The translations under genes and the position numbers were made by a program. A DNA stretch of 64,000 bases from an uncultured Schlesneria sp. (GTDB taxonomy: Bacteria > Planctomycetota > Planctomycetia > Planctomycetales > Planctomycetaceae): NCBI GenBank assembly GCA_903871875.1, contig CAIQIR010000176.1, positions 1-64,000 on the forward strand. The letters run 5' to 3'. A model generated the notes under the pieces. That model had not been told where the DNA came from and ran no database searches. It saw only the letters and a list, made by a program, of their open reading frames with translations. Of this stretch, positions 6,593 through 57,626 are shown piece after piece (within the stretch, counting starts at the first letter, position 1; each line of letters opens with the position of its first letter).

Positions 6593-6630
6593 GGTTGCGG
6601 CTCTCCCTCAATCCAGTCGCACGTTCGTCG

Positions 6631-18207: not shown

Positions 18208-20178
18208 TCAATCATCGCTGTAATCACCGCTGATGAAAATCAGACGTTTGCCATCGGGGGTCCAGCAGCTATCCGTATTGTTGCGGGATTCATCCTGGCC
18301 CACCACTAACTTGACCGAGTCGGTCTTGTCGGGATTGAATTCGTAAAGCTGCTTCCGCCCCTCACGTTCGGGACAAATTGACGAGAAGATGACGCGGTCG
18401 CCTTTGGGGTGCCACGCAAAATCGGTCATCATGTTGCTTGTGCATGAATAGTGGGCTTTGAATTTGGGTCGCCCATCTTTCTCGACCATGCTCACGGTGG
18501 CGATGTCGAACGTGCCATCTTGTTTTCGACATTTGACACAGAACTGTTTGCCGTCGGGAGACCAGGTGCCATTCGAGATGATACTGGCATAGGGGTTCGA
18601 TTCTTCGTTGACGGCAGTGGTACTGACGTCGGTTTCGATGTCCATCGACATCAACTTGGCCCCTTCGGAAAAGGCGAGCTTTTTTCCGTCGGGAGACAAC
18701 TGAGCCCAGTTGGTTTGTTTGAGATGTTCTCGGTCGTCGTTGGTCGTATCCACCAGCCAGATGCCGTAGATCGGTTCCCGACGTGAGCAGGCGAGAAACC
18801 GGCTGTCCGCTGACCAGGTCGGCATCATTCCCGAACAGATCAATCGCAGATTTTCGCCGTCGATACTCATGACGTAAATCTGTTCAGAGTATTTCCGTCC
18901 CAATGGCGATTCGTCGAAGGCGATCCATTTTCCGTCGGGGGAAACCGCGGGCGAGCCAACGATTGGATGTTCGTCCGAAACGAAGAGTGATTTTAAGCCG
19001 GTGCCATCTTCATTCAAGACGAAGAATTCGTTGGGATACTTGTTCTTGATTGGAAACTCACTGGGCTCCAGTCGATTGTTGGCATTCACATCCAGACGCT
19101 TGAAATAGGCCAATCTCAGGATCGGAAAAAGCTGTTCGTCAAACTGGAATTCCGTGAACGACAGAAATCCATCGCCGTCGAGATCTGCGGCTTTGTCGAG
19201 CCATGGCAGAACCGGATTGGCTGGCATTGTCAGTCGATATTCGGCCAGCGAAAGTCGGTCATCTTTGTCCAGGTCGAAACCAGGAAACGCCGTTTTGATC
19301 ACCTTTTGCTGATCCTGCGTGAATTCGGCTAGCAGTTCCTTGCCATTCAAAAATCCGTCGAAGTTTTTGTCTAAACGTTGAAAGTCCGTAATCGGATCGA
19401 CAATCCCTCGATCCGTCAGCTGACTCCATTCTTCGATCGAGATCACCTCGTCACCGTCCCGATCGGCCTTGTCAAATTCAGAGGTGCCTTTGTCGACAGG
19501 AGTGATCGACGCCAGGAATTCTGCTCGTTCAAGTTTGTCGTTGTGATTGGAGTCGAGCTTTCGAAATGCGGCATAGTTGATGACGCGGCCATTGGGTTCG
19601 CGTAAAGGTTGTCCGCCATTCTGCCTGACTCCCATGACGATTTCGATGAAACGCCGCGCCTCGGCTCGACTGATCTTTTGGTCGCGATTTTGGTCGACGG
19701 AATCGGTATCCACGCGGATTTCGACGTTGTTAAACGACGTCGTCAGTGCTCTGATGAATTTGTCGGCTTCGATTTCCGTGTCGGGATGCTTGTTCCAATT
19801 GTTGAATGATTTATCCAATGTCCCGACGAGCAGATCCACCAGTGCCATGATCGGATCGAGCGTCGGTTCACGATCTTCGACCGCGACGACTCCGGGGACT
19901 GCCGCGAATTCGGACGGGTTCAATGATCCGTCGTTGTTCTGATCGAACAGCCGAAAATCCCGTTTCGCGCCGTCGGATTGGCCGCGGTCGGCAAGAAACT
20001 CTTTGAGCGACAATTTCTGATTGTGGTCCTGATCGGCCTTGGCGAAGGCGGCGGAAATTCGGTCGACTCGATTGTCGGCTTTTTTATCCGCTGCGGTCAG
20101 GTCTGATGAATGGGTCAGAACTGCGGCGATCATCATTGCCACCAACGTCGATGGAATTTGCCCTTGGAATGGTGACAT
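18208..20178 (-). CDS. EF-hand / PD40 beta-propeller fusion, exported
   Basis: 656 residues. A signal peptide is likely (residues about 10-30, VAMMIAAVLTHSSDLTAA). Residues about 45-375 hold eight or nine EF-hand-like calcium loops, for example at 49-60 (DQDHNQKLSLKE), 79-90, 162-173, 209-220, 239-250, 270-281, 302-313, 332-343 (DLDGDGFLSFTE) and 363-374. Residues about 390-656 hold about six PD40 (TolB-like WD40) repeats, seen as SPDGKWIAF, SADSRFLAC, SPDGKKLAF, SPDGKQFCV, HPKGDRVIF and TPDGKRLIF. A calcium-responsive sensor or scaffold outside the cytoplasm is plausible, but no enzymatic domain is seen. It is divergent from dnaK and has no partner gene on its strand. Confidence 0.85.
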   Translation of the reverse strand: MSPFQGQIPSTLVAMMIAAVLTHSSDLTAADKKADNRVDRISAAFAKADQDHNQKLSLKEFLADRGQSDGAKRDFRLFDQNNDGSLNPSEFAAVPGVVAVEDREPTLDPIMALVDLLVGTLDKSFNNWNKHPDTEIEADKFIRALTTSFNNVEIRVDTDSVDQNRDQKISRAEARRFIEIVMGVRQNGGQPLREPNGRVINYAAFRKLDSNHNDKLERAEFLASITPVDKGTSEFDKADRDGDEVISIEEWSQLTDRGIVDPITDFQRLDKNFDGFLNGKELLAEFTQDQQKVIKTAFPGFDLDKDDRLSLAEYRLTMPANPVLPWLDKAADLDGDGFLSFTEFQFDEQLFPILRLAYFKRLDVNANNRLEPSEFPIKNKYPNEFFVLNEDGTGLKSLFVSDEHPIVGSPAVSPDGKWIAFDESPLGRKYSEQIYVMSIDGENLRLICSGMMPTWSADSRFLACSRREPIYGIWLVDTTNDDREHLKQTNWAQLSPDGKKLAFSEGAKLMSMDIETDVSTTAVNEESNPYASIISNGTWSPDGKQFCVKCRKQDGTFDIATVSMVEKDGRPKFKAHYSCTSNMMTDFAWHPKGDRVIFSSICPEREGRKQLYEFNPDKTDSVKLVVGQDESRNNTDSCWTPDGKRLIFISGDYSDD

Positions 20179-29534: not shown

Positions 29535-32500
29535 ATGAAAACATCCTGCATGATGCGATTTGTGGTGATCCTGTATGTCACCCTGATTCTCATCTCCCCC
29601 ACTTGGGCGCAGGCCATCACCAACGGGCCTGTTGAAAAAGAAAAAACACCTGAACGCCTGATCTATCTGCCGTTCAAGAATCTCAAAGCGGTTTTCGAAA
29701 AGCCGGATGGATCTGTGCTGATTCCGTACGCTGATTACCTCAAGCTCTGGGAGAAGGCTTTTGGTGATGGAACTCGTAAGCCCGGCCAACCACCGATCGG
29801 CGGAGTAATCACGGCGGCGAATTACTCGGCGAAAATTGAAAAGGACGCCGCACAGATTTCCGCGGCGTTTGTCATCCAAGTGTTGGACAAGGGTTGGACG
29901 GAAATCCCCGTAAAATTCGGCGAGGCGGCGATTGGCAAGCTGACCTCTGATTCCGGAAAAGTTCTATTGAGGGGTACTGGAAACGGAACTTATTCCTTGT
30001 TGTTGCCGGCGCCTGGCGAACACAAGGTCCAGTTGGAACTCATGGCGCGAGTCAGGACCGCTCCAGAAGGAAAGAGTCTTGAGCTGGACATTCCTGCTGT
30101 CGGGATCACTCAATTTGAGTTCCAGGTGCCCGAGGCGGATCAGACAATTGAGTTAAAGCCCAAGCTGGTCAGCCAACCTGTTGAGGTTGCTGCCAAAGAG
30201 TCTCGCATCAGGGCCAGTATTGGTTCTACTGAAAAGGTCTCGGTACGTTGGCATCCGCGGGTGGGGACAAAGCCGGATATGGAATTACTGGCCAGCGTCA
30301 CTAACCAGACATTGGTCTCAATCGAAAACGGTCTCATTCATACGGATGCCTGGTTAACCTATGAGATCCTTCGTGGGCAACTCGAAAATGTGAAGCTGGT
30401 CGTTCCGGCGGGGTGTCGGATCCTGGATATCGCGTCGGAAGCGAAGGTGAAAGAGTGGAAGGTCGCCAACGAAGACAATCGCCAGGTTGTCAGCGTAGAA
30501 ATGCTCAGCCGTATTGAAGGCAAGGTGACGCTCGAAGTTCACACGGAGCGGGCCATCCCGGCCGAGGCGTTTGATGTCTCTGGACAAAGCGGTGACACGG
30601 CGTTCGGCATCCATGCCTTGGACGTTGTCCGCGAAAGTGGCACCATTTCCGTCAAGTCAGGGTCCGACTTGACGCTGACGGTGGAAGAGCAGCGGGGTTT
30701 GCTGCGAGTTGATGAGGATCAAATAGATCCAAAACTGCAACGAGCCGGAGGTCTGTACTACAAATACTACGCACCGTCGTTCCGCTTAAAGTTGCAAGCC
30801 AGTCCCGTTCAACCCCGATTGATCGTCGACCAACAGTCGCAACTCGTGTTTCGAGATGACCAGTTACAATTGAAGTCCATTGCCAACTACGCGATTGATC
30901 GGGCGGGCGTGTTTGAGTTGACGTTCAAGCTTCCGAACAATCTCTCCGTTGAAAATGTTGTTTGTGATCGCATGAAACAGTTTGATGTTTCTGCGGACAA
31001 ATCGTTGTTGACGGTGGGACTGCGGGAAAAAAACCAAGGAGCCGTTTCATTAACGATTACGGCCACGCGACGACTTGATCCGGCCGCTGAAAAGTCCGAT
31101 CAAATCTTACCATTGCTGGAACCACTGGGTGTGGAACTCGAAAATGGCAAAGTGCGTGTGTTTGCCCCCGACACGATGGAAGTGATTACCGACTCCGAAA
31201 AACTCGTTGCGGCTCAGCCAGACTCGGCACCGCAAGTCGAAACGGTTGCAAATGCCCGATTGGTCTCCTCGTGGCTCTACAATCGACGCCCCGTCGAGAT
31301 TCCTGTGCGGACGGTCCGTAAGCCAACTCGCTTGTCCGCCGTCGTTGGGACGAAAGCTGACGTCAAGCAGGGGCAGGTACTTGTCACGACCAGCGTCGAC
31401 TATCTGATCGAATATGCGGGGATCGATACCTTTCGCTTTGCCGTACCTGAATCCATCGCAGACAAAGTGCAGATTTCGTCCAAGGTCTCCGGGACAGCGC
31501 CTGCGATCAAGCAGAAAAGTCGGGCGGCGACTGCTGTTGATGGATGGGTGGCATGGACAGTTGTCATGCAACGCGAAGTTCTGGGAGCGCAACCGTTCGA
31601 GATCACTTACGATCTTGCACCGGGCAAAGGTTCGGAAGCCAACAGCGAAATCGCCACGATCGAAGCGATTCGAGTATTGGACCCTTATGAAAAATCTGAT
31701 GGACCTACAGGTCAACGTGATGTCACCGTTTCCCGGACGATTGGCGAACTGACCGTTGTCAAAGACCGTGCTCTGTCCGTGTCGGCAATCGCCAGCGGAG
31801 GTGATGTCGAACCGGTCGATGTCCGTGAACTTCAGCATCTTTCGCAAGAAGGTTTCGTCGCGTTTCGCTATTTCAAACAACCGGTCAAACTGGAACTGAA
31901 GTCGACGAAGTACGACGTTCAACCGGTCGTTGAGACGGTTGTGAGCAAGTCATTGGTTGAAATGGTTCTCGATCGTACGGGAGTGGCGACCAATCGCTGT
32001 CGCTATGTGCTCAAATCGAGTGAACGGCAACGAATCCGAATCGATTTGCCGGCCAACGTCGAAGTGCTAGGTGTGCTGGTCGATCGTAAGTTGGTTGCGC
32101 TCGAAAAAGCGGGAGTGGCCGGCGAAAAAGCCTGGGATCCGTACTTCGTGAATGTGGCCCGAACGAAATCGTCGGACGAGCCGTTTACGCTGGCGGTCAT
32201 CTTCCGGCATGTTTTGAATCCACTCCCATTCCAAAATGCGGGAGGAACTCTTGCGCCACGATTGCCCATCATTGGTGGAGCGGGCGGTACGGGTGTTGCC
32301 GTGCAGCAATTGCAGGTGAAAATCTGGGTGCCACCGGAATATTCGCTGGTGGGAACACCCAAAAATTTCACAGTCCAGACAAGAACGCGATTTCGTGAGA
32401 GGTTGTTCGGTGCGTCGAATCCCTCATTTGGCGAACACGATCTCGATCAATGGATCGGCCACGATACCGGCGGAATCGTCGATTTTCCCACTGAAGGAAA

Positions 32501-32867
32501 ATGGTTCCAATACATGAATCTGGGGGGCAGTCGGCAAATCGAGGTCGCGTGGTGGCGCATGCCATTCTATACGTTGATCATTAGCGGGGCCCTGGTGCTG
32601 ATTGCCTTGATTTTGCGAAAGACGTCGTGGGAGAACAAACTCACGGCCGTGATCGTCGGTCTATTTGCCGCTTGCACCTATGCTCTTAAAGACTACGACC
32701 TCGTGTTTCATGGCTTGCAGGCCGCTTCATTTGGTTTGGGGACAATGATTGTCATCTGGCTGATTCATAGTTTGTTAAGCCCGAGATCGACGGTTGTCCG
32801 AACCGAAACTCTGGTTCCACCACCAACAATGCCAACGCCCGAATCGCCACCCGTTACGGGTGGCTAG
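29535..32867 (+). CDS. giant secreted membrane-anchored protein, module A
   Basis: 1110 residues of no recognised family. A signal peptide is clear (VVILYVTLILISPTWAQA, residues about 10-27), and a C-terminal membrane region of three or four helices lies at 32557-32790, so most of the protein should be outside the cytoplasm. The N-terminal motif series is RLIYLPFKNLKAVF, then SVLIPYADYLKLWEK, then ITAANYSAKI and LDKGWTEIP. The same series occurs in both halves of the next protein, so I treat it as one module. The body is beta-rich and repetitive (LRLEV-like strands), suggesting stacked immunoglobulin-like domains. AAGGA precedes ATG at 29535. The 2607-residue gene follows 164 bases later. Confidence 0.85.
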   Translation: MKTSCMMRFVVILYVTLILISPTWAQAITNGPVEKEKTPERLIYLPFKNLKAVFEKPDGSVLIPYADYLKLWEKAFGDGTRKPGQPPIGGVITAANYSAKIEKDAAQISAAFVIQVLDKGWTEIPVKFGEAAIGKLTSDSGKVLLRGTGNGTYSLLLPAPGEHKVQLELMARVRTAPEGKSLELDIPAVGITQFEFQVPEADQTIELKPKLVSQPVEVAAKESRIRASIGSTEKVSVRWHPRVGTKPDMELLASVTNQTLVSIENGLIHTDAWLTYEILRGQLENVKLVVPAGCRILDIASEAKVKEWKVANEDNRQVVSVEMLSRIEGKVTLEVHTERAIPAEAFDVSGQSGDTAFGIHALDVVRESGTISVKSGSDLTLTVEEQRGLLRVDEDQIDPKLQRAGGLYYKYYAPSFRLKLQASPVQPRLIVDQQSQLVFRDDQLQLKSIANYAIDRAGVFELTFKLPNNLSVENVVCDRMKQFDVSADKSLLTVGLREKNQGAVSLTITATRRLDPAAEKSDQILPLLEPLGVELENGKVRVFAPDTMEVITDSEKLVAAQPDSAPQVETVANARLVSSWLYNRRPVEIPVRTVRKPTRLSAVVGTKADVKQGQVLVTTSVDYLIEYAGIDTFRFAVPESIADKVQISSKVSGTAPAIKQKSRAATAVDGWVAWTVVMQREVLGAQPFEITYDLAPGKGSEANSEIATIEAIRVLDPYEKSDGPTGQRDVTVSRTIGELTVVKDRALSVSAIASGGDVEPVDVRELQHLSQEGFVAFRYFKQPVKLELKSTKYDVQPVVETVVSKSLVEMVLDRTGVATNRCRYVLKSSERQRIRIDLPANVEVLGVLVDRKLVALEKAGVAGEKAWDPYFVNVARTKSSDEPFTLAVIFRHVLNPLPFQNAGGTLAPRLPIIGGAGGTGVAVQQLQVKIWVPPEYSLVGTPKNFTVQTRTRFRERLFGASNPSFGEHDLDQWIGHDTGGIVDFPTEGKWFQYMNLGGSRQIEVAWWRMPFYTLIISGALVLIALILRKTSWENKLTAVIVGLFAACTYALKDYDLVFHGLQAASFGLGTMIVIWLIHSLLSPRSTVVRTETLVPPPTMPTPESPPVTGG

Positions 32868-33031
32868 TTCTTCCGAGTCGGAAACGGAAGGAGCCACTAG
32901 TGATCAGTTTTTGGTGTTTCAGGAAGAATCGACGCAAGATGCGGTTGGACGCGAATCAATTCGGCGGACGGTTTCCCCAATCAGACGATTGCCGCGCGCG
33001 AAAAGCTTCTTCCCCGTTGACGAGGGGTCTC

Positions 33032-36000
33032 ATGATGAATCGATTTCCTCTCATGTTCGCGATGATTCTGTTCATCGGAGTCATCCCATCACGTTTTGCC
33101 GTCGCCCAGCCCCGCGATCCAATTGCGGAATTGACAGAGGCCCGTCGAATTTATGTTCCGATCCAAGATCTGGACGTCGTGATCGAACGTGATAAGGAAG
33201 GGGTCCTGATCTCGCGAGCCAAGTTCGATTCGTTGTTAAGTCAGGCAAAGGCAAATATTGAGAAGAACCCGACCCTGGCTGGAGTGCCGGTCGCTCTCAC
33301 AGCAGCCGATTACGCGGCACAAATCGTGGGCGATCAATTGTTAATTTCGGTCAAAGCAGAGATCAACCAATTTGACGAAGGGTGGTGTGAGACGTCACTG
33401 CCGCTCCAGCGACTTGCTCTTGAGCGTGCGACGCTTGATGACGCACCGGCATTCGTGGGGCGGAATCTAGACGGGTCCGTTTCGTTGTTCACCTATTCGC
33501 GAGGGAAGCACGCTCTCAGCCTGCAGCTCTCTACGGAACTGATCACTTCCGGAAGCGATCAAGCGGCTGTTTTCTCATTATTACGAGCCCCCAGCGGTTC
33601 GCTCACTTTGTCGCTGCCGGCCGGAAAGCGATTGGTCGTGGATCAGCTTCAACTCGAACGACCGGCTGCGCTCGAGCAGGTCGCTGATTATCAAATCGCC
33701 GTGGGAGGATCAGCGGTGATGAACTTGCGCATCACTGATCGAGCTGCCGAAAACGCTGCCGATTCGCTGATGTTCGCGACGACCGGATACGGATTGCATG
33801 TCGCGCCCGGTGAAGTGACCTGGCACGCACGCTCGACTCTTCAGTTGTTCGGGAAGCCCGTTGATCGGTTGACGTTTTCGGTACCCAGTACACTCGAAAT
33901 TGCTGACGTCGAAGCCGTCGGATTGGAATCGTGGAACCTTACGGACGATCCCAACGAACCACAACGGACGAACATCTCGTTGACTTTCGGTCAGGCGTTC
34001 GAAGGGACGCGTCAGATTTCACTCAAAGGGGTGATGTCAGTGGCAACGGGAAAGCCCTGGGATGTTCCACCACTTCGAATCACTGGCGTTACCTCGCATA
34101 TTGGACAGATCGTCGTTGAACATCAGCCGGGCATTCGGCTGCGAATTGATGAAACATCGGGAATGCGGCGAGCCACACAGGATCAAAAGCCGGCCGCCGA
34201 TATGCCAGATGGATTGTCGAAGCGCGGCTCAAACGAATTTCTGCGGTTCGATGTTTGGAGGCCTGATTTCACTTTGCGATTGACGACACAGCCAAAGCAA
34301 AGCGAGGTTCATGCGGCGGTGGCCAGCGTGTTGGATGTGAATGTGACCGGGCTTGATTTGCATGCCGCGATCACGGTGGAAGCCCATTTCGCACCTCTAT
34401 TTGAAATCGACGTTCGGTTGCCGTCTGAATGGCAAGTCTTAAGCATCCATAAGGACGACCATCCGCTTGCGTGGCAGATGATCAGACTGGATGAGGTGGG
34501 AATTAATCAACTACGGATTTTGCTGGAAAAACCACTCGCTGCAGAGACGAACGGTCAATTTCGGTTGGCGCTACGACGCGATGTCGAAGGGTGGCCGGTG
34601 GAAGCCGAGCCCATCGTCGTAAATCTGCCAGAATTGTTTTTGCCACAATCCAGTCTGACAGAAGTGGCGATCGTCGTCCGCGGCGACGCGGACCTGGATC
34701 TTTTGGCATTCGACTTGAAGGGGTTGGACCCGCAGCCGATGAAGGCTGATTTTGAACGGTTGAGGTTTCAGTCACAGGACACACGCTTTGCCGGCAAACT
34801 CAAAGTGACGCGCAAGCCATCCCGGATTTCGGCTCAGACAGTGACCTTTGGAAGAATCGACCCGCAGACGATTCACACGTTTTTGCAAGCGACAGTCGAC
34901 GTTCAGGGCGGGGGTGTCCGGTCGATCAAAGTCGCATTGCCAGAAACGACGGGAACGGCCATTCGTTTTGAATCGACGGGCGCAAGGATCGTCGAACAAA
35001 AATCGGCATCACCTCAAAACGGCGAACGTGTCTGGACGTTGCAGTTTGATCGGCGGCTTCGAGGTCCGGCTCTGTTGACGTGTGATCTGGATGCACCCCG
35101 AGGCGAAATGACTGAGTTTGTCTTGCCGCAGTGGCGATTCGCGGATGCTGAGAGACAAAGTGGATATGTCTGCCTCGAAGCTGGAGGTGAACAGCGGTTG
35201 ACGATGACCGCTAACGAAGCTGACGGATCCCCTTTAGTTGAAGTCGACACACTCGAACTTCCGCAGGTTGTTTATCGTCCGAAAGAGCGGATCGTCGCCG
35301 TGTATCGCTCTGTCGCCCCCAGAGCAGTGGTATCATTGAAAGAGCAGAAATTTGACAAACTTGCGGTGCCAACCGCCATCTGTCCGTCGTTAGATATTTC
35401 GACCATTGTGGGTCGCACGGGCGAGCTTCAGCATCAAGCGAGATTCCTGTTGAATACGGTTGGCGTGCAGGGGCTGCATGTGACCTTTCCGTCTGGTTCC
35501 ACATTATGGGCCACGACTATTGACGGGCGTCCGGTGGAAGTGCGTCGTCATGGCGACGTCTATCTGGTTCCCATTCCGGCCAATATTCCCGTGGTGTCGT
35601 CCGCCACACCGTCCTCGGGAAGACCGGATGTTTCACACCTCTTGCAACTCACTTACCGTTCGGATGTCGTCGCCATTTCGCAATTTGGGACACTGAATCA
35701 GACTCCTCCCATTCTGACGGTGGAATCGGCACAACGAACGGCAATGCCGGTGGAAGTCCTTGAGCAACGGTGGAACTTGTACTATCCGGAAGAGATGCGG
35801 TTGGTCGGCAGTCACAGCCCCTTGGCACCGTTACAACCTCTCGACACCATGAGCATTTTGGGAGCCTGGAACGCGAACTTTCGCGCCCCCACTTTCGCGG
35901 CGCTAATGCGCCAAGTGATTGTGGTTTGTGGTTCCCTTGGAATCATTTGTGTTTTCGTTTTCTCTTTTCGCCGGAAGCGATTTCTGTTTGCACAAATCGT

Positions 36001-39000
36001 TGTCATTTGCGCTTTGGCCGCCTTGTTTTTCGCCACAATCCCGCCCTCCCTGCAACAAGCACGAGATGCCTCTCGCAAGTCTTCTGCTCCTGCTGAAAAG
36101 TTGTTGAAGGGTCTGGATGATTCCCGTGTTCCGGTACCAGCCTCTGCACCGAAAAGTCGAACACCATCAAGCGATGAACTGAAGGGGGGAACTCATCTCG
36201 GTCTCGCGACTTCTCCAGATCATTCCGAGGATTCGGCGGCAACCGATCCGTTCGGGACCACTCGCGAATCGGTGGGATTTGAAATTGCGGGTGCCGGTGC
36301 GAAGCCGAAGAATGTGGTCGCCAACGAACCTGCTGGTGCCGAACAGGCTGTCGAACGAGAAAAAGGCAAACTGGGCTCGAAAGATGCCGCGAACCGTGCC
36401 TTGGGATTGCTGTCCCTGGCGATTGATTTCGTTGCCCCTGCCGGCAGTCGCGAAAAGAGATTTCATTACATTGGGGCTGATGTTTCCTCCTCGGGAATCC
36501 CTCTGCAAGTGGACTATGTCGATCGTCATTCGGGAATGGCAATGCGTGTCTTCCTGATCGCTTTCGCGGTTTTGATTGCTTGGATTTTGCGCCGATCGAC
36601 TCTGGCAATGAAACTGAGAGTGATCACTTTGGGGGTCGTGATACCGATGTCATTTATGTCGCTGGCTCCGATCGGTTATCAGGTCGTCTTGGATGGAGTT
36701 CTGCTGGGGACGCTGGCGGCCGTGGGGGTCTGGTTGGCGCGGGGAGCGGTACTTTGCTGTCCATGCAATCGCTGCCGGTTGCTGAGCACGCAATGCGCTA
36801 CAACGGCCGCAGTTCTCACCGCGCTATTCGCCATTTCAGACGTTTCCTTTGCGGCCGAAAAGGCCGACGTATCGAGCGCAAAGCCGGCGGTTGGAACCAA
36901 ACCGATGGGGACGTTGATTGTTCCGTATGATGCGGGAACCGATCCGCTGGCATCCGACCGAATTTTCTTGTCGCACGAACAATTCCTGGAACTTTATCGT
37001 CTTGCCAATCCGACCCAGTTGCTAAAACCGCAAATACCACAGGCAGGAGGGATTCTCGAAGCTCTTTATTCGGCAACGCTCGTCCCGAACACACAGCGGC
37101 CAGACGATTCGGTGGTGCAGGTCACGGCGCGATATGCGGCTCGCAGTTTCGTGGACGGTCAAATGCTGATCGAACTACCGGTAAAATCAGTTTCCGCGCG
37201 TGATGTCAAACTTGATGGTCAGGCGGCGGCATTGATGGCCGGCCCAGACGGCTTCAAGATTGCAATTTCGAAGCCCGGTTTGCACGTCATCGATTTTGCG
37301 TTTGATATTCCTGCACGGCTATCCGGCATGACCGGGGCATTCACATTACCGCTGCTGGCGGTGCCGTCCGGGAAACTCACGTTCGGGCTTCCTGCCAAGG
37401 AATTGTCGATTCGTGTCAATGGATCGTCGACCGTTTTTCGGCGTGTGACGCAAGGTGATTTGCAATCGATTGACTTGCCGATCGACAAAGGCGGGGAAAT
37501 CACGATTGTCTGGCAACCACCGCAGGCGCGCGACGTGATGGAGTCTGTCGTGCAGGCCGATTCGGCGCTTGCGATGACGGTGAATGATGCGGGTGGCCTT
37601 ATCAGCCAGGGGTTTGTCTTTCGAGTCCGACAAGGCGGATTGGTAGAAGCTTCATTCGAACTTCCAGAAACATTGCGATTGCAATCTGTCGGCGGTGCCG
37701 ATGTCGGTGGTTGGGAAATCCAAGGAGCAGGAACCGGCCGGAGACTACGGGTCATCTTCCGTCGCAAGATCGCCGACGAGACGCGATTGACGATCAATAT
37801 GTTTCTCGAATTGAATGTCGGGGCATCGTCCTTAACGATTGCCGTTCCGCAAATCAAACCGCTCGATGTTGCCAACGAAATCGGTCAAGTGGCCGTGTTT
37901 GCTGGCGACCAGATCTCGATCCGGGCTGAACAAGTCGAGTCGCTGGCTCAGGCCGATAGCGAGAAGTTTTCCATCCAAGTGCCGACCGATCACCCCAACA
38001 TCATTCCGCAGTTGGTTTATCGATTCTCGAAGCGGCCTTACACGTTGGCGCTCCGAGTGACACGACAAGCATCACAATTGCACGTGACGGCACAGCATGC
38101 GGCCTTGATTACGCCCCGAAAACAGAACCTGACGACCCGTTTGCGCCTTGAAGTGACCGGTGCACCTCGTTCGTCGCTCTCAGTTGCGTTGCCGGCTGGC
38201 TTCGTCTTGTTGGACGTTCAGGCGACGGGAATGCGGGATTGGTACGTTGCCTCGCAAGGTGATGGACTGACAATGACAATCGAGTTAGCTGCTCCACGTA
38301 TGGGGCTGGTGGAAGTCGTTATCGCGGGTTTTACCCTTGGCGATAATATTGCCGCGTCGGTTCGATTTCCCCAGCCGAATGATGCAACGCGAATCGACTC
38401 CACGGCCGCGATCTGGCTGGATGAAGGATTGACCGGTTCACTCGACACATTTGATGGTTGGCGTTCAATCGATATCTCGCACGTTAGTGGGGAATTGTTG
38501 GCCGTGCGTTCGCAACAACCTGTCCGATTTGCGTTCTCGTCGACAACTTTGAATCCTTCGCCGATCGGTCTGAAATTGACACAAGCGGTGCCGAAATTGT
38601 CGGTCGACGGCTTGTCGATGGTCACCGTCACTGACGTTGCCGTAATCTACACTTTCGCTTTTCAATGGCAAATTGATTCGGCCACTACGGAAACGTTGTC
38701 GCTCACCACACCCAGTTGGCTGGCAGGGAAGCTCGAGTTTCAGGGGCCAGGATTACATGAAGCAACATCCGTTGATGCGGGCGGCAATCGCTCGCGATGG
38801 ACGATTCATCTTCGGACGCCTGTCAGAGGCAAGTATTTTGCCACCGCAACGGCAACCCTGTCTCCGGCTGCTGCGGAAGTACTGGCTCCTGCAATTGTGT
38901 TTGAGGCTGACCAGAGGCCACTCGATGCTCAACGACAATACGTGCTGTTGATCAACTCGTCCATGAGTCAGTTGATTTCGATGGACCCCGCATTAATTGA

Positions 39001-40855
39001 GGCTGTTCAGCGTGAAGATCTTCCGGTTGTGGTCCAGCAAGTGTTTATTGATCAGGCGGCGGAACTGGTTCGAGTGAAGTCATTGCTCACCGCGCCGAAA
39101 TGGTCGCAGCACAAGTTCACGCAACAACCCGGTGCGCCCGCCTCGGTCAATGCCGCCGATTTGACGTCAATTCTTTGCCGTGACGGAACTTATCGGGCTC
39201 AAGCGATCTACACGATCAAGAATCGGTCCCGTCAATTTCTGGCCCTGAGAATGCCGGAAGGAACCGAGTTGCTTTCGGTCTTTGTGGCTGACCAGCCATC
39301 CCGAGCAGTGGAAGCGAAGCTTCCGTCACAAAAAGGGGGCGTCGTCCAATTGATTGCCTTGCCGAAGACCAGTACGGCAAGTCTGTCTTTTCCTGTGAAG
39401 CTCGTCTGGCGAGGGAGACTAGCCGATCAATTGCCTCTTCCAGAAAAGTTTGCGACGCAAGAGGTCTCTTTCCCGGCTCCTCAGATTCTCAGTCAAAAAG
39501 ACGACGAAGACTACGGGATCCCCGTGGCGCGGACTCGATGGACGGTCTACGTACCTTCGTATCTTGATGCCACGGCGGCTCGGTCGACGGCCAAGCACAA
39601 CCTTTCATTGTCGGACGATTCGAACAAACTGTACGGCAACGCCATGTTGCAAGAGACGGGTGAACTGCTCGGATTTCTTGAGCAGATTCTGGCCAGCAGC
39701 GACCGCAGTCGGTCGGTCAGTAGCGTGAAGCAGATCAGTGTTGCGACCGAGAATTTGAAACGGCTGGGCATGGAACTGGATCGCTATTCTGGCGCAAACG
39801 ATGCGGAATTTGAGAAGAACAAAACAGAAATCAAGAAACGATTGTCGGCAGCGCAGCAGATGGCGGCAGACCAGAATCAAAAGACGCAAGATTTCTTATT
39901 GAGGTCACGCGATCAAACCGGGCAACAACGATCAGTTGAGTTCCTCTCTGGAGATCAAGAGGAAGAAGAGATCATTGCCGGTGAACAACAACGCGCGTTG
40001 ATCGAGTCCAACTCGACAACACTCGTTTCGACGCAAACCCAACAGGATGACCAGGAGTTCAATTTCCATCTCGAAGTCCATGAGCCTGCCGTGGGACTCA
40101 AGTCGAATGTGATTGGTGAAAAGTCGCCCGCTAAAAAAATCATGGGACGACAATCGAGCCCTGCCAATGAAACTCGTCAGCAACTTCGTGACACCAACTC
40201 GCTTAACATTGATGCCCTTAATTCGGTTGTGACGAATAACAGTGTGATCCGCGGACGGCAATCAGGTCAGCAGGTTCGGACCAATCAGGTCGGGGTTCAG
40301 GTTGACTCCAACAGAAATGCCGAGGGCGTGCCGAATGTTGGAGCCGCTACGGATGGGGGACATGAACAATTTTTTGGACTCAATCTCGTCGTGGCCCAAC
40401 AACCAGGCGCAGGACAGCAACCGCCTCAGGCGGGGGGAGGCGTTCCACTGGCCGCTGCGGGCCAGTCTCCGCTCGGAAATCCCGCAGGCGGACTTTCCTT
40501 GGGAATTGATTTACCCACATCGGGTCGCAAACTGGTGTTCACGAAGGTGGGTGGTGATCCGAAATTGGCGCTGGTAGTGCGTTCGCAAGAATCGTTGCGC
40601 CGAGGCATCAGCTTGATTTGGTCCGCGGTGTGGCTGCTGATGGGAGTGACCATCTTGCTGACGCTGCGGAAAGAATCATGGCGAAATCGACTGCCCAATC
40701 TGCTGCCATGGGGAGCGGTCGTCTTGGGAATTCTCGGATTTTTCGCGCTGCCGGCCCCTTTCAACTTGGGAAGTTTTCTCTTGTCTCTGTTGGGCACATT
40801 TCCTGTGGCTTGGCGATGTTTTGCACCTGCTGGAGTGGAAGAATCCGCTCGATAG
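33032..40855 (+). CDS. giant two-module protein, apparent gene fusion
   Basis: About 2607 residues. Start ATG at 33032 or 33035, with GAGGGG just before it. An N-terminal signal peptide (FAMILFIGVIPSRFAVAQ) is followed by module B1: RRIYVPIQDLDVVI, GVLISRAKFDSLLSQA, LTAADYAAQIVGD and FDEGWCETSLPL. Hydrophobic helices lie at about 35908-36045 and 36548-36745. Then a second signal-like stretch (TTAAVLTALFAISDVSFAAE, about 36798-36860) leads into module B2 at about 36900 (LIVPYDAGTDPLASDRIFLS, HEQFLELYRLANP, LEALYSATLVP). After a Gln/Asn-rich region at about 39900-40480, a C-terminal membrane segment lies at 40600-40840. The three modules share motif order with the upstream gene. Function unknown; an envelope role is inferred. 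Confidence 0.85.
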   Translation: MMNRFPLMFAMILFIGVIPSRFAVAQPRDPIAELTEARRIYVPIQDLDVVIERDKEGVLISRAKFDSLLSQAKANIEKNPTLAGVPVALTAADYAAQIVGDQLLISVKAEINQFDEGWCETSLPLQRLALERATLDDAPAFVGRNLDGSVSLFTYSRGKHALSLQLSTELITSGSDQAAVFSLLRAPSGSLTLSLPAGKRLVVDQLQLERPAALEQVADYQIAVGGSAVMNLRITDRAAENAADSLMFATTGYGLHVAPGEVTWHARSTLQLFGKPVDRLTFSVPSTLEIADVEAVGLESWNLTDDPNEPQRTNISLTFGQAFEGTRQISLKGVMSVATGKPWDVPPLRITGVTSHIGQIVVEHQPGIRLRIDETSGMRRATQDQKPAADMPDGLSKRGSNEFLRFDVWRPDFTLRLTTQPKQSEVHAAVASVLDVNVTGLDLHAAITVEAHFAPLFEIDVRLPSEWQVLSIHKDDHPLAWQMIRLDEVGINQLRILLEKPLAAETNGQFRLALRRDVEGWPVEAEPIVVNLPELFLPQSSLTEVAIVVRGDADLDLLAFDLKGLDPQPMKADFERLRFQSQDTRFAGKLKVTRKPSRISAQTVTFGRIDPQTIHTFLQATVDVQGGGVRSIKVALPETTGTAIRFESTGARIVEQKSASPQNGERVWTLQFDRRLRGPALLTCDLDAPRGEMTEFVLPQWRFADAERQSGYVCLEAGGEQRLTMTANEADGSPLVEVDTLELPQVVYRPKERIVAVYRSVAPRAVVSLKEQKFDKLAVPTAICPSLDISTIVGRTGELQHQARFLLNTVGVQGLHVTFPSGSTLWATTIDGRPVEVRRHGDVYLVPIPANIPVVSSATPSSGRPDVSHLLQLTYRSDVVAISQFGTLNQTPPILTVESAQRTAMPVEVLEQRWNLYYPEEMRLVGSHSPLAPLQPLDTMSILGAWNANFRAPTFAALMRQVIVVCGSLGIICVFVFSFRRKRFLFAQIVVICALAALFFATIPPSLQQARDASRKSSAPAEKLLKGLDDSRVPVPASAPKSRTPSSDELKGGTHLGLATSPDHSEDSAATDPFGTTRESVGFEIAGAGAKPKNVVANEPAGAEQAVEREKGKLGSKDAANRALGLLSLAIDFVAPAGSREKRFHYIGADVSSSGIPLQVDYVDRHSGMAMRVFLIAFAVLIAWILRRSTLAMKLRVITLGVVIPMSFMSLAPIGYQVVLDGVLLGTLAAVGVWLARGAVLCCPCNRCRLLSTQCATTAAVLTALFAISDVSFAAEKADVSSAKPAVGTKPMGTLIVPYDAGTDPLASDRIFLSHEQFLELYRLANPTQLLKPQIPQAGGILEALYSATLVPNTQRPDDSVVQVTARYAARSFVDGQMLIELPVKSVSARDVKLDGQAAALMAGPDGFKIAISKPGLHVIDFAFDIPARLSGMTGAFTLPLLAVPSGKLTFGLPAKELSIRVNGSSTVFRRVTQGDLQSIDLPIDKGGEITIVWQPPQARDVMESVVQADSALAMTVNDAGGLISQGFVFRVRQGGLVEASFELPETLRLQSVGGADVGGWEIQGAGTGRRLRVIFRRKIADETRLTINMFLELNVGASSLTIAVPQIKPLDVANEIGQVAVFAGDQISIRAEQVESLAQADSEKFSIQVPTDHPNIIPQLVYRFSKRPYTLALRVTRQASQLHVTAQHAALITPRKQNLTTRLRLEVTGAPRSSLSVALPAGFVLLDVQATGMRDWYVASQGDGLTMTIELAAPRMGLVEVVIAGFTLGDNIAASVRFPQPNDATRIDSTAAIWLDEGLTGSLDTFDGWRSIDISHVSGELLAVRSQQPVRFAFSSTTLNPSPIGLKLTQAVPKLSVDGLSMVTVTDVAVIYTFAFQWQIDSATTETLSLTTPSWLAGKLEFQGPGLHEATSVDAGGNRSRWTIHLRTPVRGKYFATATATLSPAAAEVLAPAIVFEADQRPLDAQRQYVLLINSSMSQLISMDPALIEAVQREDLPVVVQQVFIDQAAELVRVKSLLTAPKWSQHKFTQQPGAPASVNAADLTSILCRDGTYRAQAIYTIKNRSRQFLALRMPEGTELLSVFVADQPSRAVEAKLPSQKGGVVQLIALPKTSTASLSFPVKLVWRGRLADQLPLPEKFATQEVSFPAPQILSQKDDEDYGIPVARTRWTVYVPSYLDATAARSTAKHNLSLSDDSNKLYGNAMLQETGELLGFLEQILASSDRSRSVSSVKQISVATENLKRLGMELDRYSGANDAEFEKNKTEIKKRLSAAQQMAADQNQKTQDFLLRSRDQTGQQRSVEFLSGDQEEEEIIAGEQQRALIESNSTTLVSTQTQQDDQEFNFHLEVHEPAVGLKSNVIGEKSPAKKIMGRQSSPANETRQQLRDTNSLNIDALNSVVTNNSVIRGRQSGQQVRTNQVGVQVDSNRNAEGVPNVGAATDGGHEQFFGLNLVVAQQPGAGQQPPQAGGGVPLAAAGQSPLGNPAGGLSLGIDLPTSGRKLVFTKVGGDPKLALVVRSQESLRRGISLIWSAVWLLMGVTILLTLRKESWRNRLPNLLPWGAVVLGILGFFALPAPFNLGSFLLSLLGTFPVAWRCFAPAGVEESAR

Positions 40856-41066
40856 GCTCGCCGCGTTGAAAGCGGCCTGATCACGAAAAGTGATGCCGAC
40901 GTGGGACCAGCGCCGATGAAACGCCAATTCTTGCCCGTTTTTCCCAAGTCGACATTGGGCGAAAAACGACCTGCGGCTAAGATGAATGCCAACGACAGTA
41001 GACATTTCCTCGTAGTGTCTCTGGCGTAGACGTACCCCCCAGGAGTTGGCGACGAGGTCTGGCAGG

Positions 41067-43556
41067 ATGCAAATAATGGTCTGTTCGCTGAAGGTTGTCG
41101 GACACCGGGTCGAAATGCTCGGTTGGCTGCGAGCCGTATTGATTTTGACGCTCGCGATGGCCAGTTCCGCGCAGGCCCAGATTCAAGGTTTCGATGATCT
41201 CTTCTCAGGACGGTTGGCGCCGCAGAGCTCTTCGAAAGCCGAATTTATCGCGACGCTTACCCCATCGTCAGCCAAACCGGGCGATGAAGTCACTTTGACC
41301 GTAGCCGTCAAGCTTCCCCCGCAGAGTTATATCTATGCGACCACAGGGGATTTCGAACAGCGAACTCGAATCACGACGACGACGATTGCGGGGCTTGAAG
41401 CGATTGATGCGGAGTATCAATCGGACCGTGAGCCGGAAACGAAAGAGGATCCCGTCTTTAAACGGCTGCTTTCTAAGTTTCATGGAGATGTTTCATGGTC
41501 AAAAAAATTCCGCATTGAGCCGACGGCCGACTTGGACAAAGTGGCTGTCAATTTGCAACTGGAAGGGCAGTATTGCTCTGAAGGGCCCGGCGGCCAATGC
41601 ACGCTGATTAAACCGCCGGTTTCTCTCGAGGCGACTCTTCACCACAAGGCTGCCGTTGTAGAAGACATAGGCAAGCCTGTGGCTCAATTCAAGTTCTCGA
41701 AGCGTCCGGTCCGAGGAAAACAAAACCCCGCCGAGTTGCACTTTCAATTGGCCCCGACCACTTCATCTGGCGGTAAGAAGGTGAAACTTGCGATCACAAT
41801 GAAGCTCGATCCCGAGTGGCACACTTTCTCGACGACATTCAACGGCGAAGGAGGGACGCCAACAGAAATCTCCTTCGACAAACTCTATGGTCTTAAACCG
41901 GTCGGTGGGATCGTTCCCAATCGTCCTCCTGAAATCAAAGAAGAATCAGAGCTCAAGCTCAGCCAGGAAGTTTACCACAACGAAGTGACGTGGGTTCAGG
42001 AATTCGAAGTCTTGCCCGAATCCAGGCCCCGCGCATTCGGTGTCGAAGGCACGATTACTTATCAAACCTGCAAATCGGCATGTATTCCACCCCGCGGAGT
42101 GCCGTTTGTCGTGGGGGTGACGAGTGACGACATCGAACCGCCTGCGAGTATCGAACCGTTCCAAGAGCCGGCGGTCAGTGCCGATCTTCCCGTGACCAAT
42201 CAGCGTCCGCAGGATAAGGGACTCATGGTCTTTCTGCTGACGGCGATCGGGGCGGGGCTGGTTGCATTGCTGACCCCGTGTGTTTTCCCCATGGTGCCCA
42301 TTACGGTCAGCTTTTTCCTGAAGCAGAATGAAAACAAAGGTGGCCGGCCATTTGTCCTGGCCTTGGTGTTTTCTCTATCGATCATTGCCGCATTTGTCGT
42401 GATCGGCGTCGGGATCGCCGCGATTTTTGGAGCAACCAAACCAAACGAACTCGCCAATAATTGGATTTTGAATCTGTTTCTCGCCTCGGTTTTTTTTGCG
42501 TTCGCGCTCAATATGCTGGGGCTGTTCGAGATTCAGGTGCCGTCCTGGTTGTTGACCATGACGTCGACGGGAGAACAAACGGGCGGTTATGTCGGCGTGA
42601 TTTTTATGGCACTGACCTTCGTGCTGACGTCGTTCAGTTGTACGTTCGCGTTTGTCGGCTCGTTGCTCGCTGCGGCTGCCCAAGGCGAATACTACTGGCC
42701 GGTGTTGGGGATGTTGGCCTTCGGGACCACGTTTTCCGCCCCGTTTTTCCTGCTGGCTTTGGCACCCGGACGCTTGAAGTCGCTGCCGAAGAGTGGCGGT
42801 TGGTTGAATGCCGTCAAGGTGGTCATGGGCTTCGTGGAATTGGGGGTCGCAGTCAAGTACATCAGCATCGTCGACCAGCAATGGAACGCGGTTCCATGGC
42901 TGTTCGATTTTACGAACGTCATGACCTTGTGGTCGGTCTTGGCTGCTTGCACGGGATTGTATTTGCTGGGGTTGTTTCGGCTGTCTCACGATACTCCCGG
43001 GCATGGTTTGTCCCCCATCCGAGTGTTGTTGGCGATCGGATTTCTGATGTTGGGCGGTCTATTTGTGGTGGGGCTGTCCCAGCCCGATCGCGAGGCGTGG
43101 TTTATCAATCAATTGGTTTCCTTCGCTCCGGCTCGTCTGGACAATGAAGAGTTCGAATTGGATTTTGATGCCGCAGTGCTCGATGCGACAGCGAATAATG
43201 TCCCGCTGTTCGTCGATTTCACGGGAGTCTTCTGCACGAATTGCCGCCTGATGGAAAAACGAATGGCCAAGCCCAGCAACCACAAACGGTTGAAGCATTT
43301 CGTTCAGGCTCAGCTGTATACCGACAAAGTTCCCAAGGTCACGGACGAGACTGAAGCCAAACGAATTCTCGCCCGAAACGTGTCCTTACAAGTCGATTGG
43401 TTTGGCGACGTCACGCTGCCCTCTTATGCGATTGTGACGCCCGATGGGAAAACGATTCTGTCCAAGTTTTTTGGGCTTGAGCAACGAGACGGAGACTTTG
43501 CGCGATTCCTTGACGAGGGCGCGACAAAATGGCGGTCGCTGAGTGCCGCGAAGTGA
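41067..43556 (+). CDS. DsbD-like thiol:disulfide interchange protein
   Basis: About 829 residues from ATG 41067; ATG 41115 is also possible and would put the signal peptide (MLGWLRAVLILTLAMASSAQ) at the very start. Two extracytoplasmic DsbD alpha-like domains come first (about 41225-41640 and 41690-42130). The second has paired cysteines in YQTCKSACIPP. Next is the eight-helix CcdA-type membrane domain with LTPCVFPMVP (near 42270) and TSFSCTFAF (near 42631), whose cysteines shuttle electrons from cytoplasmic thioredoxin. The C-terminal thioredoxin-like domain has FCTNCRLME at 43231. It reduces periplasmic disulfides, for example for cytochrome c maturation. The duplication of the N-terminal domain is unusual. 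The next gene starts six bases after the stop. Confidence 0.93.
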   Translation: MQIMVCSLKVVGHRVEMLGWLRAVLILTLAMASSAQAQIQGFDDLFSGRLAPQSSSKAEFIATLTPSSAKPGDEVTLTVAVKLPPQSYIYATTGDFEQRTRITTTTIAGLEAIDAEYQSDREPETKEDPVFKRLLSKFHGDVSWSKKFRIEPTADLDKVAVNLQLEGQYCSEGPGGQCTLIKPPVSLEATLHHKAAVVEDIGKPVAQFKFSKRPVRGKQNPAELHFQLAPTTSSGGKKVKLAITMKLDPEWHTFSTTFNGEGGTPTEISFDKLYGLKPVGGIVPNRPPEIKEESELKLSQEVYHNEVTWVQEFEVLPESRPRAFGVEGTITYQTCKSACIPPRGVPFVVGVTSDDIEPPASIEPFQEPAVSADLPVTNQRPQDKGLMVFLLTAIGAGLVALLTPCVFPMVPITVSFFLKQNENKGGRPFVLALVFSLSIIAAFVVIGVGIAAIFGATKPNELANNWILNLFLASVFFAFALNMLGLFEIQVPSWLLTMTSTGEQTGGYVGVIFMALTFVLTSFSCTFAFVGSLLAAAAQGEYYWPVLGMLAFGTTFSAPFFLLALAPGRLKSLPKSGGWLNAVKVVMGFVELGVAVKYISIVDQQWNAVPWLFDFTNVMTLWSVLAACTGLYLLGLFRLSHDTPGHGLSPIRVLLAIGFLMLGGLFVVGLSQPDREAWFINQLVSFAPARLDNEEFELDFDAAVLDATANNVPLFVDFTGVFCTNCRLMEKRMAKPSNHKRLKHFVQAQLYTDKVPKVTDETEAKRILARNVSLQVDWFGDVTLPSYAIVTPDGKTILSKFFGLEQRDGDFARFLDEGATKWRSLSAAK

Positions 43557-55059: not shown

Positions 55060-55856
55060 CGAGATGTCCTTCGTGTTAGTGCGATTTCACGCGTTCTTTT
55101 TTTCATTCGCAGTCGGCTGATTGTAGACGAGTCGTATGATCCGACCAGATTCTATGCCGCTAGTGACTGACCAACGCTCAACAACGGCTGTGAATCTTCT
55201 CCAATCGGTCTCGATCGCCGTTTTGAAGAATGCGCAGACGCAATCATACAAGCGAGCACGGGGAATGTCAGGCATCGAGCGGTACTTGCCGTACTGTGAA
55301 AAAAGCGATGTTTGCAGAAAAAAGCGATGTTCGCAGTCTGTCAAAATGAATTGACGAGATGGCGAATCGACTCCTGTCGAAGTCTTCCTCATTTCGTGGA
55401 AGAGTTGTCGCAAAAGCGGCCTCGCTATTCCTCCGTACCGGAAGCTTGCTAAGTCGTGATTGGGAGAACAACGGCGCGCTGACAAAAGTCATCATTCACG
55501 TGGCAAAACCACCTCGTGCACTTAGGTGAAGTCTTAACGTACGTACCAATCGCTTCATGCAACAGCTTCAAAAACACTGGCTTCTCAATTAGTTGCGGAC
55601 GTGAGGTTCAGGCCGAAAGAACGTGGACGTTGAGAAATGTCCACGTTCTTGCACTTTAATGCTCGTCGTAATCCCTACAACGATTCGTTCGTTCTGAGGC
55701 TGTCACTATTGAGATTGGCGCGTCGCACATGTGACAAGGCTTCTTTATTCAGCAGGCGATCGACTCAAGAACGGTCACGAATGGAAGGGGAAAGAACGGG
55801 AACGTCGATTGCATTCACATTGGAATGCGTGTTTTGTTGTATGTTGTTGCGGGCAG
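55060..55856. other. intergenic region with a 19-base tandem repeat
   Basis: About 800 bases before the helical exported protein gene. A tandem duplication of a 19-base unit (GAAAAAAGCGATGTTTGCA) lies at 55298-55316 and 55317-55335, with one mismatch. No arsR or other gene is convincing. Frames here are Arg- and Ser-rich without ribosome-binding sites. Confidence 0.5.
55298..55335 (+). repeat. two tandem 19-base repeats
   Basis: GAAAAAAGCGATGTTTGCA is followed directly by GAAAAAAGCGATGTTCGCA. The one difference is T to C at position 16. A short slippage duplication in non-coding sequence is the simplest explanation. Confidence 0.8.
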
Positions 55857-57626
55857 ATGATGGCACTTTGGTCTCGTCGATTATTGATGCTGTTGCTCGT
55901 CACCAGAGTGATGGTCGATGGCGGGGCATTGCTCGCTGGGAACAGTGAGACGCTGCTCAACGAAATTGGGCTGGCAGAGCTTCAAGCGAAAGCAGAAGAG
56001 GCCGTTGCCAGTGAGCTCGCCGAACGAAGTGCGGCAGATCTCAATGGAGTCGAATCGCTTTACGCGAGCGGCTACGCCAGCTGGCGAGAAGCAATCGAAG
56101 CACGTCACGATTCCTTCCGCGCCGCCGAACGTCTGGGGGCGATCAAGCGATTTCGCGAATGGTTGCAAAGGGTGCGGAGAGCATCCAGCGAATTCGGGGG
56201 AACCACGAATAGTTCGCGACCAATGATCATACATCTGGATCTTTCATTTCCAGGTTCACGCGGCGTATTGGGGTGGGTTCGTCCCGAACGACTCAATGAA
56301 CTCGATCGCGACCTGTTGATTCAGCTGTTGGTTCAGCGAAGTGAGCTTGCTGTAGGGCTTGTTGATGAGATTGACTCGGTACGTTACCAGGCTGAGTATG
56401 TTGCCTGGCGACTGGAGAGATTGAGATCGCAAACACCCGTTTCCGGCGCGGAGCTCAAGGCGACTCAATCTCATCAAAACCTATTGCAAACTCGTCTCGC
56501 ATTGGCTCAAGCCATTCATGACCGACGAAAAAGCGAGCATGGAATTCTCGTTGCTTCGATTGGCGATATTCACAACATTGCCATGGATCCAGAGCATCTG
56601 GACCAGCGTTCTCGCCTCCACAACAACGTCCTTCCCGGAATCACAACTCAGTACATGCAGCGGCACCGTGAACGTCTCGTCACGATTCTGACTTATGAAG
56701 CCAATGCACGCGGGGTTCTCGAGCAGGTTCAGTCGGCACGAAACCTCTCCGATCTTGTGGACCGCAGTCGCACAATAAATCGAGGCCAATTTGTCGGGGA
56801 AGCTCAATCTCAATTAACCGAGCAAGGGCTTGCTGTCCGTCCGATCGCAGGGCTGAAGCCACGGGATCCGAATCACGACGATCCGAGTCATCAACAACAC
56901 GCCGGAGGGGATCGGAACGTCGGGGTGGTCGCCCACCAAGTTCCATTTCGTGAAGAGTCGACCAGCGAGCCGTCAATTGATCGGTTGTTTGCCTATCGGA
57001 GTGACCGACCTTTGCTGCGGAAGGCGATCGAAATTGCTCGCGAATGGTTCGAAGCGATCTCTGAACGAGATGTGGCCGAACACGAACGAAGCTGGCGATC
57101 CGAGTTCGTACAGCGGTTGCAACGACAGTCGCAACCGAGTCCGAACGAAATCCTCGCCGCCAAGTATGCTAGCGACGTCTGCATTGGACGAGTTCGAGCA
57201 GCCTCGGAGCGTGCATTCCTTGTTTGTATGCTGTTTGATCAAATTCCTGACGTCGCGGAAGACGAATCGGCGATCCAACTCAGTTTGATCGGTGACGAAG
57301 AAGCAGAAACGTTGCTAAGCGTCGCCGAACAACATGTCGCATCATTTTCCCATTCGCGGGGGCAACAGCGACTTGCGGTACAAGCAGCCAAAGTGGATGG
57401 TCTCAGGATTCTACAGTCCGCTGGGCATGCATCGGCCGACGAAATGGCTCGTGCAGAGCTAACGCTGAATTTGGTGAAGTGTGAGCAAGAATCGGCTCGA
57501 CGTCGTTTACGTCTGGCTGAACTCGACCTGGAAATAATGAAGTCGATTCTTGCATTGAGGAATGCCCATGATCTCGCTCATGAGGGACTCCATGGGGTGG
57601 GAAAAGCGACAGGGAAAGAAGATTAA
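55857..57626 (+). CDS. helical exported protein, unknown function
   Basis: About 589 residues if it starts at ATG 55857 (or 55860), which opens a signal-like MMALWSRRLLMLLLVTRVMV. An upstream start would add 42 Arg/His/Cys-rich residues that look non-coding. The mature protein is Glu/Arg/Ala/Gln-rich and helical; long stretches such as LNEIGLAELQAKAEEAVASE and ARRRLRLAELDLEIMKSILA suggest coiled coils. It resembles the hairpins of TolC-like or adaptor proteins in style, but I recognise no family. The next gene starts 90 bases later and is also exported; TolC-family genes follow. Confidence 0.65.
   Translation: MMALWSRRLLMLLLVTRVMVDGGALLAGNSETLLNEIGLAELQAKAEEAVASELAERSAADLNGVESLYASGYASWREAIEARHDSFRAAERLGAIKRFREWLQRVRRASSEFGGTTNSSRPMIIHLDLSFPGSRGVLGWVRPERLNELDRDLLIQLLVQRSELAVGLVDEIDSVRYQAEYVAWRLERLRSQTPVSGAELKATQSHQNLLQTRLALAQAIHDRRKSEHGILVASIGDIHNIAMDPEHLDQRSRLHNNVLPGITTQYMQRHRERLVTILTYEANARGVLEQVQSARNLSDLVDRSRTINRGQFVGEAQSQLTEQGLAVRPIAGLKPRDPNHDDPSHQQHAGGDRNVGVVAHQVPFREESTSEPSIDRLFAYRSDRPLLRKAIEIAREWFEAISERDVAEHERSWRSEFVQRLQRQSQPSPNEILAAKYASDVCIGRVRAASERAFLVCMLFDQIPDVAEDESAIQLSLIGDEEAETLLSVAEQHVASFSHSRGQQRLAVQAAKVDGLRILQSAGHASADEMARAELTLNLVKCEQESARRRLRLAELDLEIMKSILALRNAHDLAHEGLHGVGKATGKED

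Follow-up and report, generated by a model that had tools for sequence, protein, structure and literature searches.

Two adjacent open reading frames on the + strand of the window, the 64,000-nucleotide stretch of Schlesneria (Planctomycetota) DNA that we analysed, encode three modules, A, B and C, that are homologous to one another. Judged from their sequences, these are three paralogues of one family, each with a signal for export and with membrane segments at its C-terminal end. An earlier note, made from the letters of this DNA, had spoken of three copies of one giant secreted module belonging to no recognised family. Giant, homologous modules were found, but not freely secreted ones: they are predicted to be membrane-anchored and to face the periplasm. 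The main features are as follows.

29535 to 32867, + strand: gene 1, module A (ORF, 1110 aa)
32900 to 40855, + strand: gene 2, a single frame encoding modules B and C (ORF, 2651 aa from a GTG)
33032 to 36775, + strand: module B, residues 45-1292 (profile alignment with A; hydropathy)
36776 to 36853, + strand: internal signal-peptide-like segment, residues 1293-1318, core ATTAAVLTALFAI, predicted cut ...DVSFA/AEK with the slash marking the cut (motif conservation)
36854 to 40852, + strand: module C, residues 1319-2651 (profile alignments with A and with B; hydropathy)

Homology and layout of the three modules

A single-sequence phmmer comparison of A with the 2651-aa protein gave an E-value of 4e-30. 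Alignment of the three modules by hidden Markov model, which the earlier note had proposed, was highly significant and upheld its count of three copies: with module profiles built from alignments of 27 A homologues and 21 BC homologues, we obtained profile-profile E-values of 1.4e-54 for A-B, 1.1e-58 for A-C and 5e-50 for B-C, each over ~900 columns, compared with best E-values of 0.025 to 0.87 for control profiles that had been reversed or column-shuffled. Module identity was 17-19% where the profile alignments were printed. The same alignments bore out the observation that the N-terminal motif series of A (RLIYLPFKNLKAVF, ITAANYSAKI and LDKGWTEIP) recurs in order in both halves of the next protein, placing RRIYVPIQDLDVVI, LTAADYAAQI and FDEGWCETSLPL of B, and LIVPYDAGTDPLASDRIFLS, LEALYSATLVP and GQMLIELPVK of C, at positions matching those of A. 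Membrane segments, also claimed for every module, were present at the C-terminal end of all three by hydropathy, and as helices in the structural model of A.

Profile self-alignment revealed repeats of ~175 aa inside each module (for A against itself, residues 413-887 vs. 236-691, an offset of ~177, E 3e-15), and each module is therefore itself a stack of smaller repeated domains. Hydropathy shows that the 2651-aa protein has its signal peptide from Met45 onward, so the true start of gene 2 is probably the ATG at 33032 and not the GTG at 32900. Terminator and promoter scans gave results at chance level only.

In module B, the signal peptide is followed by beta domains, a membrane hairpin (residues 1005-1047), a low-complexity linker and three membrane helices (1212-1280), the membrane parts being assigned by hydropathy, which also marks a further hydrophobic segment at 1294-1312 of the 2651-aa protein. 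Module C consists of beta domains, a coiled-coil-like and low-complexity stretch, and a membrane anchor that begins at about residue 2569 (position 40604). All three modules follow one outline: a signal peptide, a short helix near the N terminus, about five beta domains and a membrane anchor at the C-terminal end. By homology, the B and C ectodomains share the chain of beta domains modelled for A, and from the charge pattern we infer that both ectodomains of the 2651-aa protein are periplasmic. A cysteine cluster, CCPCNRC...C (residues 1286-1299; 36755-36796, + strand), lies between the last B helix and the internal signal peptide, where it is predicted to be on the cytoplasmic side. Similar clusters (CKCCACCC, CRCC, CKCCC) occur at the same place in loci L035, L039, L041, L049, L050 and L057, and this stretch is possibly a metal or modification site.

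Fold of module A

An AlphaFold2 model of the whole of A (29535 to 32867, + strand; mean pLDDT 80.8, pTM 0.40) comprises a signal peptide at residues ~3-26, a helix at 65-79, five beta domains, juxtamembrane strands and three membrane helices, and the three C-terminal helices are accompanied by a low-complexity tail of ~29 residues. The domain boundaries, which were read by eye from the strand list, are D0 88-242, D1 251-424, D2 427-585, D3 590-780 and D4 798-1008. The parts are placed as follows.

29796 to 30260, + strand: D0, M1-aminopeptidase-N-like beta domain, residues 88-242 (VIA match to 1z1w over 142 residues, Z 13.5, rmsd 2.8 A)
30261 to 31334, + strand: D1-D2, two-domain unit, residues 243-600 (model; Foldseek and VIA match to Ost1/ribophorin I)
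31302 to 31874, + strand: D3, repeat of D1/D2, residues ~590-780 (profile self-alignment)
31926 to 32558, + strand: D4 and juxtamembrane strands, residues ~798-1008 (VIA match to the leukotriene A4 hydrolase N-domain, 1gw6, Z 13.1)
32559 to 32777, + strand: C-terminal membrane anchor, helices 1009-1029, 1032-1052 and 1054-1081 (model; hydropathy)

In a structure search with the whole of A, the best Z was obtained for Ost1 (13.8, residues 251-598), followed by the N-domains of M1 aminopeptidases (13.5 at residues 90-242) and of leukotriene A4 hydrolase (at 798-1008). When D1-D2 was folded alone from 45 sequences, the model reached a pLDDT of 93.4 and a pTM of 0.71, and the top eight chains in a Foldseek search of the PDB were all Ost1/ribophorin I, with E-values from 4.6e-11 (6ezn_A) to 5.4e-9. 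VIA aligned D1-D2 with Ost1 chains at Z 13.4 to 15.5 over 317-328 residues, with both domains in order; the best match, 8pn9_E (Z 15.5, 323 residues), covers the whole two-domain lumenal part. M1 N-domains ranked after Ost1 for this unit, at Z ~12.5 and with one domain (D1). The rmsd between D1-D2 and Ost1 over both domains was 22 A, which we read as a different inter-domain angle. Sequence identity was ~10% in the structural alignments with Ost1 and with M1 N-domains. On these models, each module consists of Ost1/M1N-like domains strung together, a claim about fold only, since the likeness does not prove function. That Ost1 and M1 peptidases use this domain provides a first handle on possible binding partners.

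The earlier statement that no family could be recognised thus holds for sequence and has to be amended for structure, in which kinship with the Ost1 and M1 N-domain fold is seen. Neither the modules nor their aligned homologues matched a Pfam family of known function, the modules had no match in NCBIfam, PHROGs or PADLOC, and none was found among PDB sequences. For Ribophorin_I (PF04597), a Pfam search at E<=1 gave no match to the window proteins, and the family was absent among the 25 families listed, out of 28, for 33 aligned homologues of A and of its second-locus counterpart D (described below) at E<=10. Genome searches with PF04597 were empty, the controls likewise falling under the cut-off. 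A search for STT3 (PF02516) at E<=0.1, which detected four archaeal controls, found none in the window's own genome. No Pfam enzyme domain, peptidase M1 included, was matched by the window proteins or their homologues, and HExxH occurred in 0 of 74 modules. Our search of the open-access literature found no paper on the module family, nor on ECF/vWA in planctomycetes.

The B/C junction and the spread of the set

A signal-peptidase motif, often AxA/Q or AxA/E, follows the last hydrophobic segment before C in nearly every homologue; examples are DVSFA/AEK in the window, SEASA/QPD, GNAFA/QNG and, in the second locus of the same genome, VSSFA/QEP. The motif was present at 35 of 39 homologous junctions, in a hand-chosen set whose junctions were placed by hand where automatic placing failed, vs. 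50 of the 219 further membrane segments in these proteins (odds ratio 30; p 1e-15, a guide only, as homologues are not independent and the motif was defined after examples had been seen). An earlier automatic count had given 27 of 41 vs. 54 of 265 (p 1e-8). Because both the junction signal peptide and the cleavage motif are kept in this way, the B-C chain is probably cut into two subunits. At one locus from a deep lineage, L095 of genome G118, A, B and C are three separate genes (1128, 1237 and 1138 aa), and C starts with a signal peptide of its own ahead of the VPYD motif. The simple reading of the joined arrangement is a gene fusion in which the signal peptide, and probably its cleavage too, was retained. 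In the 2183-aa protein of L109, the junction (residues ~1085-1113) is lipobox-like (VGLPGC) in place of a signal peptidase I site.

Searching planctomycete genomes for the module, as the earlier note had suggested, showed it to be widespread in Planctomycetota. A pattern scan with A, which finds close kin only, returned Schlesneria genomes as the nearest records. Among 294 sampled genomes of Planctomycetota, at least 99 were matched by the A profile and at least 102 by the D1-D2 profile, including every one of the 17 genomes listed for the window's own family (17/17); since few candidates per genome were scored, 99 and 102 are lower bounds. Across Planctomycetota the three modules stay together as a set. 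Within the class of the window, nearly all loci that were read end to end consist of an A-type gene and, after it, a gene with two modules; many deep relatives retain the order A, B, C, and several genomes show a 4-base overlap between genes 1 and 2. The very long ORFs in some GC-rich genomes (e.g., 3688 aa at L105) were taken as overlapping frames and not as fusions. A search of a plasmid collection gave no match to the modules. What emerges is a giant envelope protein family, found in about one-third of the sampled Planctomycetota, that has neither a name nor a model in any library searched.

The window's own genome holds a second, diverged three-module locus (contig G000:C127, L059:9711-19711) that encodes proteins of 1133 and 2200 aa and, like the window locus, has the A-type gene ahead of the two-module one. 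Its modules D, E1 and E2 match A, B and C, respectively (profile E-values 1.7e-65 for A-D, 4e-45 for B-E1 and 1.5e-30 for C-E2), and the whole three-module set has therefore probably been duplicated within the genome. The gene upstream of this locus resembles, by eye, inositol monophosphatase. In a tree of 74 modules, whose many long branches make fine placement unsure, one group (16 rows, SH-aLRT 99) brought together the A rows from locus type I and those from the deep families, the B rows fell nearly all together and the C rows were more scattered. The A/B/C labels required 7 changes on this tree vs. a mean of 39.5 when shuffled. With A rows grouping in this manner and so few label changes, the three kinds of module look older than the families.

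No neighbouring gene was constant across the compared loci, and context is therefore of little help in the window itself. A DsbD-like thiol:disulfide gene lies downstream in the same direction (41046-43556) and, among the neighbourhoods compared, was otherwise seen in two close relatives only. Elsewhere in the window, we observed a transglutaminase-like TgpA gene beside DUF58 (4100-8028, - strand), as in MoxR-type gene clusters, a 656-aa protein with EF-hand and WD40-like PD40 matches (18208-20178), and a 631-aa ORF without a Pfam match at 1e-5 (55731-57626). In four deep-lineage loci (L109, L110, L111 and L114), the two genes directly upstream of the modules encode an ECF sigma factor and a YfbK-type vWA protein. 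The pair occupies the place of gene A in L109, L110 and L114, and a zf-HC2 anti-sigma domain lies beside it in L110 and L114. YfbK_C adjoins modules in at least eight sampled genomes from seven families. It had no match in the window's genome at E<=1e-10, and no sigma or anti-sigma neighbour was present among the scanned genes at the window locus.

Proposed role and comparison with known systems

We propose, with roughly even confidence, that A, B and C form a three-subunit periplasmic scaffold, anchored in the inner membrane, that holds other proteins. The proposal is based on the lack of an enzyme motif, of STT3 and of any family match in the searches above, and on Ost1, which has two similar beta domains in the lumen and is a binder of glycosylated peptides (PMC7226087). 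B and C would be translated as one chain, within which the internal signal peptide would start translocation of C; signal peptidase would then cut the chain at the junction and so fix B:C at 1:1. The conserved junction gives good support to this part of the scheme. We hold more loosely to the part that follows, in which A, B and C would come together in a single complex at the inner membrane, on its periplasmic side, and serve as a holding scaffold. There the domain stacks would keep hold of further proteins or peptides in the way that Ost1 does in the ER lumen, and these clients might be envelope components kept in place or secreted proteins leaving Sec. From the motif and domain searches, enzyme activity is not expected. 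The planctomycete cell plan has been the subject of long debate. Many planctomycete essential genes are of unknown function (PMC10632474), and, given both, a conserved scaffold at the inner membrane would make a sensible target.

The chief rival, which we consider possible though clearly less probable, is a structural tether, in which rods of beta domains would span the wide planctomycete periplasm from the inner membrane to the wall or outer membrane and handle no clients. About five domains in a row with a membrane anchor at one end, together with the coiled-coil-like and low-complexity spacers of C, would suit such a rod, and the low confidence in domain arrangement (pTM 0.40) is what a flexible chain would give. 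However, Pfam found no wall- or outer-membrane-binding domain, and three paralogues that have been distinct since before the families diverged suggest interfaces more specific than a rod requires. It is unlikely that the modules are instead an envelope sensor, signalling the state of the periplasm through a vWA anti-sigma factor to an ECF sigma factor. The ECF sigma and vWA genes that precede the modules in deep lineages, with zf-HC2 in two of these loci, and the recurrence of the vWA family beside modules speak for a sensor, but the pair may merely regulate the modules, and with no YfbK_C match in the window's genome and no such neighbour at its locus, sensing cannot be the general role.

A direct Ost1 relative at the Sec exit, that is, a scaffold associated with the bacterial translocon and serving nascent secreted proteins, would account for Ost1 being the best PDB match to D1-D2 over its whole lumenal part. 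It would also suit a phylum in which at least one member encodes many very long surface proteins (PMC8567305), and the presence of Ost1 in Asgard archaea indicates that this protein is not confined to eukaryotes (PMC11417166). Against this stand the missing Ribophorin_I sequence match, three membrane helices in place of one with no ribosome-binding cytosolic domain, the failure to find STT3 in the genome, and M1 N-domains that match almost equally, such that old common descent may explain the fold without any shared role; we consider this reading improbable. Its fullest form, a three-subunit ribophorin I relative in Planctomycetota that is made in part as a polyprotein, serves as a translocon-side periplasmic scaffold for new exports and shares domain descent with the ER subunit, strikes us as quite improbable.

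With Ost1/ribophorin I (PF04597), the modules share a tandem arrangement of similar beta domains on the lumenal or periplasmic side, followed by a membrane anchor. They differ in number and company: module A has about five domains where Ost1 has two and three membrane helices where Ost1 has one, it lacks the cytosolic ribosome-binding domain that follows the Ost1 membrane helix, and there are three paralogous subunits, with no STT3 found in the genome and no sequence match. We rejected an OST subunit on these grounds (no PF04597 match, no STT3, three helices, no ribosome-binding domain). The N-domains of M1 aminopeptidases and leukotriene A4 hydrolase resemble single domains of A, namely D0, D1 and D4, but the modules have neither the catalytic domain nor HExxH of the M1 family, and their domains stand in tandem and are membrane-anchored; a peptidase was rejected on the HExxH count and the missing Pfam peptidase M1 match. 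The integrin alpha ectodomain is likewise a chain of beta sandwiches ahead of a membrane anchor and gave low Foldseek E-values, but no propeller was seen in the secondary structure of the model and there was no sequence match. With TM-scores of ~0.1 and an rmsd of ~30 A, we do not take integrin alpha as a specific relative and read the likeness as that of beta-sandwich chains in general. The ECF sigma/vWA (YfbK-type) operons are genomic neighbours of the modules in some deep lineages and not relatives.

For the B-C chain, the comparison is with FbcH of Bradyrhizobium, a cytochrome b/c1 fusion that is cut by signal peptidase. The proteins of FbcH are unrelated to the modules, but in both cases a single chain contains two membrane proteins, separated by an internal signal sequence, and the conserved internal signal peptide makes B-C a candidate bacterial polyprotein that can be tested directly.
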